From: Exiguobacterium sp. Leaf196
GTDB taxonomy: Bacteria > Bacillota > Bacilli > Exiguobacteriales > Exiguobacteriaceae
Reading direction: 5' to 3'
Length of the DNA stretch: 64,000 nucleotides
NCBI RefSeq assembly: GCF_001423965.1
Contig: NZ_LMPV01000006.1
Location: 558,001-622,000, forward strand
The notes beneath the pieces are model-generated. The model had not been told where the DNA came from, made no database searches, and worked only from the letters and a program-made list of their open reading frames with translations. The translations under genes and the position numbers were made by a program. Each line of letters opens with the position of its first letter. Position 1 is the stretch's first letter. Below, piece after piece: positions 40,073-59,154 of the stretch.

Positions 40073-40336
40073 TCTAAAAAAACCGGTCTTCCGCCCCTAA
40101 GAAAAGGGACGAAAGACCGGTTTGGCTTCCGCGGTACCACCCACGTTGTCTGTCTATGACAGACCGCTTGATTCACGGATAACGGTGTGAAAGACCGGAT
40201 TCGCTACTACGACTTCACGAATCGTGCTCCCTGACGAGTTCACGGTTGTTACCGACTGGTTCGCACCTTCCACCAGCTCTCTTGACGGCACCTTTCCCCT
40301 ACTACTTCAGTTCCATGCATTTGACTATCTTTTTCT
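40073..40336 (-). promoter_or_regulatory. T-box leader of leuS (specifier CUC, Leu)
   Basis: Leader RNA that senses uncharged tRNA-Leu. The invariant T-box (GGGTGGTACCGCG) is at 40129-40147 on the minus strand; a strong terminator hairpin with T run is at 40073-40123; the Stem I specifier loop GAACTC puts CUC (Leu) at 40236-40238; the distal AGGTGCGAA loop is at about 40262-40270. Antiterminator versus terminator pairing is as expected for this class. Confidence 0.93.
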
Positions 40337-46982: not shown

Positions 46983-47172
46983 GAAAAAAACCTTTCCAAG
47001 TCCAAAAAATGGTCAGGGAAAGGTTGTGCGTTCTTCCTTTACCCTCTTATCGTTCGAAGTGTTTACTTCGCTTCAGGAGAGCACCTTTTCCCTCATTAAT
47101 ATATGAATTAATGTAGGACGGTTGCCGGGTTTCTTCGGGCCTTGTTCCCTCCACCTGCTCAGAATAAGAGTA
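46983..47172 (-). promoter_or_regulatory. SAM-I (S-box) riboswitch of metK
   Basis: Aptamer on the minus strand from about 47170 to 47044, closed by P1 CTCTTAT/ATAAGAG. The S-box core GGTGGAGGGA and CCCGGCAACC are present. The expression platform is a terminator AACCTTTCC/GGAAAGGTT (46989-46997 with 47017-47025) with a T run. High SAM should stop metK transcription. Confidence 0.95.
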
Positions 47173-54567: not shown

Positions 54568-54960
54568 TTATTTTTGGAAGTTTGATTTTTCAATCCATTC
54601 TTCCAATTTACCTTTAAGAACGTTGAATCCAGGTGCTTCTTCTTGTTTGAAAGCAGGACCTGCATCGCGACGTCCAGCGTTTTTGCGTGGACCTTTCGCG
54701 CGTGCTTCACGTTTTGGAGCTTCCTGAGTTGCTTTGATCGAAAGCTTCATTTTTTTGTTAGCTTCGTCGATGTCGAGAACTTTAACAGTTACTTCATCGC
54801 CAACTTTTACGTAATCGTTGATGTCTTTTACGTAATCGTGTGAGATTTCTGAAATGTGGACGAGACCTTGTGTTTGCTCGTCAAGTGCTACGAAAGCACC
54901 GAAGTTTTGAATACCAGTTACTTTACCAGTAACGACTTGGTCTTTTTCAAAGTTTGCCAT
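54568..54960 (-). CDS. yugI: S1-domain RNA-binding protein YugI (GSP13)
   Basis: General stress protein 13-type, 130 residues as in B. subtilis: S1 RNA-binding domain (about 5-75, DQVVTGKVTGIQNFGAFVAL, GLVHISEISHDYV) and a basic, Arg/Lys/Ala-rich tail. Probably ribosome or RNA-associated. Promoter TTTACG-17-TATTAT on the minus strand (55018-55023 and 54995-55000). ATG with GGGAGTG. Confidence 0.92.
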   Translation of the reverse strand: MANFEKDQVVTGKVTGIQNFGAFVALDEQTQGLVHISEISHDYVKDINDYVKVGDEVTVKVLDIDEANKKMKLSIKATQEAPKREARAKGPRKNAGRRDAGPAFKQEEAPGFNVLKGKLEEWIEKSNFQK

Positions 54961-55023: not shown

Positions 55024-55104
55024 AAATATTTTTGGAATTTGTTTATTTTTTATTTCACAAGGGAACATTTTAGTAGCAAGACTTCAAGTATTCCCCCTGA
55101 TTCT

Positions 55105-55134
55105 GCCGAACTTTCCGAGTTCGGCCCTTTTTTT
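55105..55134 (+). terminator. Orphan plus-strand terminator
   Basis: Perfect 8-bp stem GCCGAACT/AGTTCGGC (55105-55112 with 55118-55125), 5-nt loop, seven T residues. No plus-strand gene lies upstream in the window since mnmM and pckA (the last ends at 48973), so its transcript is unknown. The region 55024-55104 is AT-rich with no ORF above about 20 codons. Confidence 0.7.
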
Positions 55135-55204: not shown

Positions 55205-55335
55205 TAAAAACGGACAGTCGCGGTCTGCTCGCTTTCCGCGGACAAGCCCTCATGCCGCTTCAGATGCGTCGCATCTTCCAGGGTCATGAGGACTTGTTTT
55301 TCTGCGAGTCGAGCAGAACCTCACCTGTCCTAGCG
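55205..55335 (-). repeat. Structured element: nested inverted repeat after nrdF
   Basis: Nested arms pair across about 120 bp: GGACAG (55212-55217) with CTGTCC (55325-55330); GGTCTGCTCG (55222-55231) with CGAGCAG-A-ACC (55310-55320); ACAAG-CCTCATG (55242-55254) with CATGAGG-CTTGT (55285-55297); apical GATGC/GCATC (55263-55275). On the minus strand GTTTTTATT follows the outermost arm, so it may end nrdEIF transcripts. The GCTCGCTTTCCGCGG-type arms resemble interspersed intergenic repeats seen in many Bacillaceae (from memory). Confidence 0.7.
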
Positions 55336-55367
55336 TAAAGGAAATATAGAGTAGAAGCAATCATCAA

Positions 55368-56411
55368 TTATAGGTCATCGAATCCATTCGCATCCGTTAC
55401 CTTCGCATATGAACGTGATTTTTGTTCGAAGAAGTCCGATTTCGTTGCGTTCATCGAATCATCTGAATATGCCCGAATCCATGGCATGACGTCTTCGTCG
55501 TGTCCTTCGTAGAGGTCCGACAAACCGATGACGCGAAGGCGTTTGTTCGCAAGATATTTGACATAGTCACGCATTTCACTGACGTCCAGACCGTCTAGAT
55601 CACGCAAGACATATTCGCTCCATTCGATTTCAAGATCCACGGCACGCTTAAACGTGTCGTAGACGAATTGTGTGAATGAGCCATCTGCATCGATTTCTGG
55701 ATGCTCTGACAAGACAGCACGTAATAACTGGCTGATGAAGTACGAGTGTTGCAATTCATCACGTTGAATATAGCTGATCATCGTCGATGTTCCGACCATC
55801 TTCTGATGGCGCGCTAGGTTATAGAAGAAAGCAAAGCCAGAATAGAAGTTGATCCCTTCAAGAACGATTGAAGCAACGAGTGATTTCGCGAAGTTTTCTG
55901 GAGTCCGGTCATTTTGGAAATCTTCGTATAAATCAAGAATGAATGCATTGCGCTTCATGACCATGTCATCGTCTTTCGCGATATCGAAAATCCGGTTTTG
56001 TTCAGCCAATGGAACTAAGCTGGATAAGACGTAGCTATACGATTGATTATGAACGACTTCCTGTTGTGCGATGATGGCGAGAATCGCATGAACGGATGAA
56101 TCCGATGTAAACATCGCTGATTCCAAGATGTAGCGTGTCTGAACCGAGTCAAGGATCGAGAGTAGCCCAATGATTCGTTTGAATGCATCTTGTTCTCGTT
56201 CGCTCAATTGATTCCATTGTTGCATGTCTTTTGACATTGAAATCTCATCTGGAATCCAAAAGTTCGATAACAGTTGTTTGTAGATCGAGTAAAACTGTGG
56301 ATACGCAATGTCGTTCCAGTTGACGATGGCACTTGTTTCGCCACCGATGATCGCTGTCGCGCGATTTGGATGACGTGCATCAAGCAGTTTGATTTTTTGT
56401 AGCTGTTCCAT
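55368..56411 (-). CDS. nrdF: Ribonucleotide reductase beta subunit NrdF
   Basis: Class Ib small subunit, 347 residues, carrying the metal-tyrosyl radical. Metal ligands: Asp in SILDSVQ, Glu-x-x-His in QQEVVHNQSYSYV (with the nearby radical Tyr), Glu in SIVLEGINF, Glu-x-x-His in RDELQHSYF. The C-terminal peptide ANGFDDL fits docking to NrdE. ATG with AAGGAG, overlapping nrdI by 32 bp. The nrdI gene next to it supports a Mn-type cofactor. Confidence 0.96.
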   Translation of the reverse strand: MEQLQKIKLLDARHPNRATAIIGGETSAIVNWNDIAYPQFYSIYKQLLSNFWIPDEISMSKDMQQWNQLSEREQDAFKRIIGLLSILDSVQTRYILESAMFTSDSSVHAILAIIAQQEVVHNQSYSYVLSSLVPLAEQNRIFDIAKDDDMVMKRNAFILDLYEDFQNDRTPENFAKSLVASIVLEGINFYSGFAFFYNLARHQKMVGTSTMISYIQRDELQHSYFISQLLRAVLSEHPEIDADGSFTQFVYDTFKRAVDLEIEWSEYVLRDLDGLDVSEMRDYVKYLANKRLRVIGLSDLYEGHDEDVMPWIRAYSDDSMNATKSDFFEQKSRSYAKVTDANGFDDL

Positions 56412-56868
56412 GTGCTTCGACTCCTTCTTGCTGTAATTGAAGAATGGTCCGTCTTGTCCATTCCTTGACGAGATGCGGGCGATTGCGTGGTGACTGTTCG
56501 ATTTTCAACAGTTCTCCGGCAAGCGGGACCCCGAATTTCGAGAGGTGATACGCCATCTCATCGACGGCGCGACAATATTTGACGAACATCTTATCCCCTG
56601 TTCCAAAAACAGCTGCCTGCGGAATCGCATGCGTGCTCTCCTTCAAAACCGTTCTAAGACAGTCGCGCATATCGTCGGGTAATTGCCCATCTCCCCACGT
56701 ATACGAACCAAAATAGACGATATCATAAGGCATTAACTGATACGTCGTCACTTCGTCCGCAAACAACATCGTCGGCTCGATTCCCATCTCAGAACACGTC
56801 TTCGCGACGAGTTCTGCCACCTCCTCCGTGTTTCCACTCAATGACGCATATACGATTGCTGCCTTCAT
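56380..56868 (-). CDS. nrdI: Flavodoxin-like NrdI
   Basis: FMN protein of 162 residues that supplies oxidant for NrdF cofactor assembly. N-terminal FMN phosphate loop ASLSGNTEEVAEL (about 8-20), FGSYTWGDGQLP and FGTGDKMF loops as in flavodoxins. Annotated as NrdI by operon context; true flavodoxin is an alternative. GGAGG ribosome site. Overlaps nrdF; 18 bp from nrdE. Confidence 0.85.
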   Translation of the reverse strand: MKAAIVYASLSGNTEEVAELVAKTCSEMGIEPTMLFADEVTTYQLMPYDIVYFGSYTWGDGQLPDDMRDCLRTVLKESTHAIPQAAVFGTGDKMFVKYCRAVDEMAYHLSKFGVPLAGELLKIEQSPRNRPHLVKEWTRRTILQLQQEGVEAHGTATKNQTA

Positions 56869-56886: not shown

Positions 56887-59154
56887 TTATGATGAACACG
56901 ATTCACATTCGTCGATCTCAACCGTCGTCGAACGCGTGTAGTAGATCGTCTTCATCCCAAGTTGCCATGCTTCCATGTGCATCTCGAGTAATTCTTTTGC
57001 TTTGACGTTATTTTTCACGTACAGGTTAAAGCTGATCGCTTGGTCGATGTGACGCTGACGCGAAGCATTTTGACGAATGCTCCATAACTGGTCAATCTCA
57101 AACGCTGATTTATAGAACCAGTTCGTTTCCGGTGTTAAATCCGGAACGGTAACTGGGATCTTATAGTTTTTCTTCTCTTCTGAGTAGACTTTTTTATAGA
57201 TTGGATCAATCGATGCCGTACTTCCCGCAATGATCGCCGTCGATGAGTTCGGTGCGACTGCCATCAAGTAAGCGTTCCGCATCCCGTGCGCCGTGATGTC
57301 GGCTTGGAGACGATCCCAATCGAGTTCATCCGTCGTTTTGTAGTGGCGACGTTTGATGTACTCTCCTGTTTGCCATTCTGAACCTTCAAAGAGACGGTAC
57401 GCGCCTTTCTCTTTCGCAAGTTGCATCGACGCATCGATCGTCAAGTAAGCGATTTTCTCGTAGAGACGGTCTGCGTATTGCACCGCTTCGACCGATTCCC
57501 AACGGATACCTTCGAGCGCGAGCAGATGATGCCAACCGAATGTTCCAAGACCAACGGCACGGTATTTTTGATTCGTCAATTGTGCTTGCGGAACATCGAT
57601 CGTATTCAAGTCGATGACGTTATCAAGCATCCGCATTTGAATCGGAATCAATCGTTCGAGAACATCTGAACGAACCGCACGTGCAAGCGCAATCGATGAT
57701 AAGTTACAGACGACGAAGTCACCTGGTGTCTTCGTGACGATGATTTTACCGTCTTCTGTATATTCTTCTGTCACGGTGGTCGGACTCATGTTTTGCATGA
57801 TTTCCGAGCACAGGTTTGATGAATAGATCATGCCTGCATGTTTATTCGGATTCGCACGGTTAACGGCGTCACGGAAGAACATGTATGGCGTCCCTGTCTC
57901 AAGTTGCGAACGCATGTAGCGTTTGACGAGATCAATCGCTGGGACTGTTTTTTTGCTGAGACGCGGTTCGTTGACACATGCTTCGTATCGTTCCGTGAAG
58001 CTACCGCCTTGTTCTGTCTCATCGAAATAATCTTCAAGGCTGAAGCCCATAATCGTCCGAATTTCGTGTGGGTCAAACAGGTGCCAGTCTTCTCGTGCTT
58101 CTACAGCACGCATGAAGCGGTCTGGTAAGTTAACGCCCGTGAACAAGTCATGTGTCCGAAGTCGCTCGTCCCCATTGTTGAGCTTCGCATCTAAGAACTC
58201 GAGGATGTCCTTATGCCAGATGTCAAGATACACGGCGATTGATCCTTGGCGCATACCGAGCTGATCGACGCTGACTGCCGTATTGTTCAATTGTTTCATC
58301 CATGGGATGACACCACTTGAAACACCTTTAAAGCCTTTGATGTCTGATCCACGTGAGCGAATTTTCCCCATGTAGACACCGATTCCGCCGCCACCCTTAG
58401 AAAGTGTCGCTACATCCGTGTTCGAGTCATAGATGCCGCGTAGCGAATCATCGACTGTATCGATGAAGCATGATGAGAGTTGACCATATGATTTACCGGC
58501 GTTCGAAAGCGTCGGTGTCGCGACCGTCATGTAGAGGTTCGACAATGCCCAGTAGGCTTCTTTGACGAGTTCTAAACGACGTTCCTTCGGTTCGTTCTGC
58601 ATCAGCGTCATCGCGATGACCATGAATCGTTCTTGCGGTAGCTCGTACAAATTTTTGACGTGATCACGTGCAAGATACCGGTCTGCCAGTGTCCGAAGGC
58701 CAATGTATGTGAACAGGTGGTCGCGGGAAGGATCAATCGTTGCCGACAGTTCGTTGATGTCTTCTTTCGAATACGCATCCAGTAAATGTTTCGTGAAGAT
58801 ACCGATTTCTGTCAGCTTTTCAATCAATGTATACAGCGAACCATATCGTTCTTCCGCTGCATATCCGCGGTTTTCACCCGCTTCTAGATATAACCGATTT
58901 AAGTAAGTCGCTGTCGCTACGAATGTCCAGTTCGGCTCTTCTGCCTTCAACATATCGAGTGCATGCATCGTTAACAGTTCATAGACTTGATCTGCTTGTA
59001 AGGACTTCCCTTCAAGCGCTCGGATGGCACGTTCTGTATAGCGGTCGATATCAAGTTCCGGATACGTTTCCGTCGCTTGTCGAATCACGACATATACGTC
59101 TTCTATTGTCATTGCACCCTTAAAGATGCGTGCTGTATTCAGTGGAGATGCCAC
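56887..59154 (-). CDS. nrdE: Ribonucleotide reductase alpha subunit NrdE
   Basis: Catalytic subunit reducing ribonucleoside diphosphates, 755 residues, longer than the usual about 700 for NrdE. No N-terminal ATP cone is seen; the chain starts directly with the helical domain. Active site: Cys in QLSSCFIDT, N-x-C-x-E in NLCSEI, Cys in VVCNLSS, Tyr-Tyr in TIYYTRS, and C-terminal thiols CESCSS. GTG start at 59154 with GGGAG. Order nrdE-nrdI-nrdF differs from B. subtilis nrdI-nrdE-nrdF. Two NrdR boxes upstream. Confidence 0.96.
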   Translation of the reverse strand: MASPLNTARIFKGAMTIEDVYVVIRQATETYPELDIDRYTERAIRALEGKSLQADQVYELLTMHALDMLKAEEPNWTFVATATYLNRLYLEAGENRGYAAEERYGSLYTLIEKLTEIGIFTKHLLDAYSKEDINELSATIDPSRDHLFTYIGLRTLADRYLARDHVKNLYELPQERFMVIAMTLMQNEPKERRLELVKEAYWALSNLYMTVATPTLSNAGKSYGQLSSCFIDTVDDSLRGIYDSNTDVATLSKGGGGIGVYMGKIRSRGSDIKGFKGVSSGVIPWMKQLNNTAVSVDQLGMRQGSIAVYLDIWHKDILEFLDAKLNNGDERLRTHDLFTGVNLPDRFMRAVEAREDWHLFDPHEIRTIMGFSLEDYFDETEQGGSFTERYEACVNEPRLSKKTVPAIDLVKRYMRSQLETGTPYMFFRDAVNRANPNKHAGMIYSSNLCSEIMQNMSPTTVTEEYTEDGKIIVTKTPGDFVVCNLSSIALARAVRSDVLERLIPIQMRMLDNVIDLNTIDVPQAQLTNQKYRAVGLGTFGWHHLLALEGIRWESVEAVQYADRLYEKIAYLTIDASMQLAKEKGAYRLFEGSEWQTGEYIKRRHYKTTDELDWDRLQADITAHGMRNAYLMAVAPNSSTAIIAGSTASIDPIYKKVYSEEKKNYKIPVTVPDLTPETNWFYKSAFEIDQLWSIRQNASRQRHIDQAISFNLYVKNNVKAKELLEMHMEAWQLGMKTIYYTRSTTVEIDECESCSS

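Follow-up and report, generated by a model that had tools for sequence, protein, structure and literature searches.

Stem-loop targeting by an insertion sequence is already known from IS1272, whose transposition replaces stem-loops (inverted-repeat targets), and the model published for it allows duplication of the whole stem-loop as an alternative outcome (Wan et al. 2017, PMC5678879, in the sections of the article accessible to us). That paper never uses "terminator" in its main text. Both outcomes are represented in the present genomes, with replacement in one genome (G022) and duplication at seven elements, whereas the element studied here is a lone hairpin at which no ends were recognised, and the accessible sections describe no such hairpin family for IS1272.

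Among repeats that are themselves stem-loops, Bhal-1 from a Bacillus relative measures 74 bp and is present in 36 copies (Cozzuto et al. 2008, PMC2267715, accessible part). Bhal-1 and the other families of that paper are intergenic stem-loop repeats, as here, in a comparison made by description only, and Bhal-1 might be related to the present hairpin family. REP elements with RAYT transposases are palindromes of 20-40 bp that carry a GTAG or CGTC tag (PMC3733652, accessible part), whereas our element is about 120 nt long, has four nested arm sets and falls outside that definition. Intrinsic (Rho-independent) terminators resemble it in placing a GC-rich hairpin directly before a T tract where an operon ends, but its length of about 120 nt and its four nested stems set it apart from them; the genome G006 has one short stem at the same gene. 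Relatives of the hairpin adjoin, on the upstream side, the transposases of IS1182-family insertion sequences (NF033551), unlike the copy studied here, which has neither a transposase nor recognised terminal repeats. In the accessible portion of the open-access literature no description of the hairpin family was found, and the accessible part of PMC9208149 does not mention it.

The window, by which we mean the whole 64-kb stretch of DNA that was analysed, comes from a genome of 2.98 Mb (G000), whose size and gene content suggest an Exiguobacterium. The element lies in it between nrdF and the gene of an S1-domain regulator, and its parts are as follows, in the order in which the minus strand is read.

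56887-59154, minus strand: ribonucleotide reductase alpha
56380-56868, minus strand: flavodoxin-like gene
55368-56411, minus strand: nrdF, ribonucleoside-diphosphate reductase beta subunit, upstream of the element
55324-55344, minus strand: 21-nt block TTTCCTTTACGCTAGGACAGG, overlapping the 5' arm
55212-55331, minus strand: hairpin element, read in the direction of nrdF, an imperfect hairpin of about 120 nt
Within the element, minus strand: outer stem, AGGACAG...CTGTCC
Within the element, minus strand: core, homologous to the Bacillales GACTCC...GCGGAAAGCG hairpin family according to covariance model R2 and the orthologs
55318-55330, minus strand: 5' outer arm, pairing with 55212-55224
55310-55317, minus strand: second arm, 5' side, pairing with 55224-55231
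55280-55297, minus strand: inner arm, 5' side, pairing with 55242-55259
55262-55276, minus strand: apical hairpin AGATGCG-A-CGCATCT, arms 55262-55268 and 55270-55276
55242-55259, minus strand: inner arm, 3' side, pairing with 55280-55297
55224-55231, minus strand: second arm, 3' side, 8 nt, fully complementary to 55310-55317
55212-55224, minus strand: 3' outer arm, pairing with 55318-55330
55206-55210, minus strand: T tract TTTTT, after the outer stem and one G, as in a terminator
54568-54960, minus strand: gene for the S1-domain regulator GSP13, presumably yugI-like, downstream of the element

Folding of 55205-55335 as RNA of the minus strand gave -65.1 kcal/mol, compared with -40.3 +/- 3.7 kcal/mol for 200 dinucleotide shuffles, none of which was as low (z -6.74); the z score of the plus strand was -6.30. 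The four nested sets of paired arms over about 120 bp that had been proposed in the preliminary description are borne out by the arm coordinates and by this fold energy, and the T tract that it placed at the minus-strand end is the TTTTT at 55210-55206. Its reading of the element as a terminator also agrees with the anatomy, which is present in 17 of 18 orthologs, termination itself being deduced from that anatomy.

The stable stem is followed directly by the T tract, the arrangement that defines an intrinsic terminator. At least five T within the eight bases after the outer stem were found in 17 of the 18 orthologs, L014 being the sole one without a T tract, and the hairpin energies of the orthologs range from -48.6 to -67.8 kcal/mol. 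A same-strand T tract after the outer stem is present in only 13 of the 78 family copies described below, versus those 17 of 18 orthologs. From the sequence, the hairpin is most likely an intrinsic terminator and the 3' end of the nrd transcript, separating nrd from GSP13, and a hairpin of this length probably protects the mRNA 3' end as well.

The spacer between nrdF and GSP13 measures 895 bp at L016 (genome G012) versus 378-439 bp in the other 17 genomes, and at L016 additional sequence separates the element from nrdF. A conserved stretch of the plus strand upstream of GSP13 (55057-55133), also present in G006, has a terminator-like hairpin and T run at its plus-strand end and resembles a small RNA directed away from GSP13; it matches the Rfam family ncr1241 below threshold (27.9 bits, cut-off 60). 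Elsewhere in the window, a T-box leader (40102-40324, minus strand, 128.9 bits) and a SAM riboswitch (47044-47170, minus strand, 58.1 bits) score over their Rfam cut-offs.

The window copy is an old one, and its place between nrdF and GSP13 is fixed, being shared by 18 of the 19 genus genomes; some BLAST match to the element was obtained in all 19. Its 21-nt block TTTCCTTTACGCTAGGACAGG has the same letters in every one of the 18 element-bearing genomes and was not found in G006 in a search allowing up to 3 mismatches; versions with 2 mismatches lie elsewhere in G008 and in G010, one in each (L024, L028). The apical hairpin shows a compensatory change from G-C to A-U in the ortholog L013 (alignment columns 63-70), and the window copy lacks two bases of the GACTCCTGCGG side, where 17 of the 18 orthologs have CTGCGG.

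The exception is G006, in which a weak relative (L023), with the same template as the element and changed arms, lies near another gene. G006 is the likely outgroup of the genus set because its NrdF is 92% identical to that of the window, versus 96-100% for the other members. At nrdF it has a plain short terminator, corresponding in place to the hairpin of the 18 other genomes and followed by TTTTTGCG, and the same letters stand directly after the outer stem in the element-bearing L017, L019 and L022; the stretch common to G006 and these three loci is 8 nt only. We also read the 3' side of nrdF in 16 of the 19 genomes of a second genus, where 14 of the 16 have an ordinary terminator and the remaining two, G022 and G032, have terminators struck by other elements. 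The simplest history suggested by this distribution would be a gain of the element before the divergence of the 18 genomes; a loss from G006 is a less likely alternative.

By BLAST, the source genome holds one copy of the element, its three further matches there being of 14-20 bases, and other short BLAST matches (L002-L004, L025-L027, L029-L034) were judged to be due to chance. A reading as a single copy was rejected when covariance models recovered about a dozen diverged relatives in the source genome. The model R1, built from the 18 orthologs and L023, is mostly structural (effective number 0.81) and scores opposite strands too; it gave 11 matches in the source genome, the window copy and its opposite strand among them, and had matches in every one of the 19 genus genomes and 37 of the 38 order-set genomes. 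Since this structural bias raises the concern of similarity to generic hairpins, we built the model R2 from 72 Bacillales copies, none of them of this genus. Its only match in the 64-kb window is the element itself (55332-55210, minus strand, 36.7 bits, E 4e-9), with an alignment that extends to conserved unpaired letters. Among the matches listed, R2 scored 11 orthologs at 53-61 bits; it found 13 matches at E<=0.01 in the source genome, the window copy included, and in the class set it matched 66 of 250 genomes at E<=1e-6, with at least 13 matches each in 25 of those 66.

An exact-pattern search of public genomes returned at least 119 stretches, nearly all from Bacillales among the 80 matches listed. 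We read 78 family copies, leaving out the matches at locus edges (L162, L173, L184) and not reusing repeat fetches of known element copies (L001, L035-L053), and 67 of the 78 lie outside any open frame of at least 100 codons. The alignment A2 comprises 72 copies, six near-duplicates of the 78 having been dropped; since its copies were selected by pattern, the outer columns are fixed, and 8 of the 10 pairs of helix 2 are invariant for that reason. Across A2, 328 two-sided changes were counted compared with 113.7 +/- 11.1 in shuffles, involving 16 of 26 pairs, and both arms carry letters conserved throughout the family. Covariation within the 18 orthologs alone is weak (2 pairs, equalled by 29 of 500 shuffles). 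The window element has the nested long hairpin with GACTCC and GCGGAAAGCG sides that characterises the family, and multiple copies per genome, another of its marks, are found in the source genome. The window element is thus a member of a large, mostly intergenic Bacillales hairpin family. Over the element, Rfam gave no family at its cut-off, with gathering and relaxed thresholds alike, and searches of plasmid and phage collections gave short, chance-like matches only. A longer sister hairpin, of about 155 bp and with an extra internal stem, is present in several copies in the source genome and in related ones (L081, L076, L079, L282, L288).

The preliminary description had suggested an interspersed intergenic repeat, which is what the size of the family, the position of most copies outside open frames and the 13 R2 matches in the source genome indicate. 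The search for other copies in the genome that it proposed came out negative by BLAST, a result that in part agrees with its condition for refutation, and positive by both covariance models, and the covariance test that it asked for is strong across the family and weak among the orthologs.

Several members of the family lie beside transposase genes or inside short elements like insertion sequences. Both the source genome and G004 have an IS1182-family transposase that is closely preceded by a hairpin relative (L245, L250); the transposase at L250 scores 413 bits with NF033551 (cut-off 270). A Lysinibacillus element of at least five copies (L391-L395) and three Peribacillus loci (L127, L143, L150) show the same arrangement; the transposase of the Lysinibacillus element (L366/L198) scores 423 bits with the same model (cut-off 270), L198 and G235:C6 being taken as the same record and counted once. 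The coordinates put about 60-120 bp between the hairpin and the start of the transposase downstream of it, the GACTCC strand being the one opposite to the gene, and this position and orientation recur in the Exiguobacterium-type, Lysinibacillus and Peribacillus loci. There are also short elements: 11 stretches of G062 each have one hairpin in an element with the ends GAGGCTGGGACA/GAGGTTGGGACA or close variants, and elements of about 560-590 bp with two inverted hairpins are present in G035, G020 and G032. Most family copies are nevertheless solo, because an IS1182-like end motif lies within 600 bp of only 9 public copies out of 78, and the fetched stretch gives a transposase match for only 6 of the 78. 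In a by-eye reading of the window and its orthologs, no IS1182-like terminal repeats were recognised at the window copy, which also lacks a transposase. At L398 (G148), two hairpin copies about 470 bp apart belong to a repeated block of another kind of element.

The flanks of the hairpin-bearing elements indicate what these elements insert into. Of the eight such stretches in G035, G020 and G032, seven have both ends in view, and all seven are flanked on both sides by a duplicated terminator-like stem-loop, whose copies are identical in four cases and slightly different in three. In the source genome, the two insertion-sequence ends found on contigs C9 and C11 both border on copies of one stem-loop and would be the two sides of one insertion. 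The nrdF terminator itself has been such a target in the second genus: G032 has two copies of it that enclose a hairpin-bearing element, and a comparison of G022 (listed at 8% contamination) with G027 shows the nrdF stem-loop exactly replaced by a different element with the ends CGAGGCTGGGACATAACT. If each event was independent, the window clade, G032 and G022 represent three arrivals at one terminator. The idea of a mobile non-autonomous element, also raised in the preliminary description, therefore gains from IS1182-type relatives flanked by duplicated stem-loops, with the evidence for mobility coming from those relatives and not from the window copy; the flanking duplications by which it proposed to recognise mobility surround seven of seven relatives, while the window copy has no recognised ends.

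Neither of the two loci tested for solo copies offered a clean empty site. The first candidate (L265) turned out to show partial losses in G000, G010, G016 and G017, and the second (L275) was rearranged. At the latter (L275/L279 versus L352), an intergenic cassette with two different hairpins around a terminator appears to be inverted between G000/G011 and G007, and the strands of the matches indicate the inversion for G001 too; its layout suggests recombination between inverted repeats.

We favour, with a probability of roughly 0.6, a history in which the original terminator of nrdF gave way to a hairpin from terminator-targeting elements of IS1182 type, which has since taken over termination. 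On this view the hairpin family is also an integral component of IS1182-family insertion sequences and of the short non-autonomous elements that descend from these; such elements would target stem-loops, in practice intrinsic terminators, and would duplicate or replace them on insertion. The hairpin would have supplanted the nrdF terminator in the common ancestor of 18 of the 19 genus genomes, at a position immediately preceding the ancestral T tract, which would have been kept, so that the long hairpin would now serve as the nrd terminator. Family homology, the fixed position, the terminator anatomy, the IS1182 linkage of the relatives and the duplication or replacement of stem-loops by them are computed observations; that the window copy arrived by IS1182-type transposition we infer. 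A wider version of this history is tentative: the Bacillales-wide hairpin may have a conserved structure and a function within terminator-targeting IS1182 elements, such as transposase control or the recognition of targets or ends, and the solo copies may be mobile terminators that replace those of the host and are long kept, as at nrdF across 18 genomes.

The solo state of most copies, which have outer arms of their own (often GTTGAT...ATCAAC), and the minority with a transposase or end motifs of IS1182 nearby (6 and 9 of 78) would also suit a non-autonomous hairpin element of REP-like or foldback kind that is independent of IS1182, is moved by another transposase and was acquired by IS1182 elements. 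At nrdF such an element would have inserted into the terminator loop, the old stem becoming the outer arm, and the outer arms AGGACAGG...CCTGTCC of L014, L016, L017 and L021 do resemble an ordinary terminator stem. We find this rather unlikely, since IS1182 transposases of three genera have the hairpin on their upstream side at a recurrent position and orientation, and since multi-copy IS1182-like short elements carry it, which points to an integral part. A different view takes the conservation of place and sequence in 18 genomes, the invariant 21-nt block and the letters conserved family-wide in both arms as signs of a functional structured RNA, a 3'-UTR regulator or small RNA kept for a role other than termination; a structured RNA was also among the suggestions of the preliminary description. 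Given the lack of an Rfam family at its cut-off, the weak covariation of the orthologs, and relatives that lie near unrelated genes and inside insertion sequences, this seems improbable. That BLAST finds one copy in the source genome and that terminator anatomy is present are what a long private nrdF terminator would show, having no mobile origin and resembling the family only as hairpins in general do. Such a terminator is very hard to reconcile with a model that was built without this genus, has the element as its sole match in 64 kb and aligns its unpaired letters too, or with the short ordinary terminators, or one struck by mobile elements, at the loci of G006 and the other genus, and we give it hardly any weight.

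On the favoured reading of replacement by an IS1182-type hairpin, an abundant hairpin repeat without an Rfam match is now connected with a defined family of insertion sequences and with intrinsic terminators as a target. The loci described here provide natural cases of both outcomes of one published transposition model, duplication and replacement of a stem-loop, at one terminator. They suggest that mobile elements can supply the 3' ends of core genes while leaving the operon unbroken.
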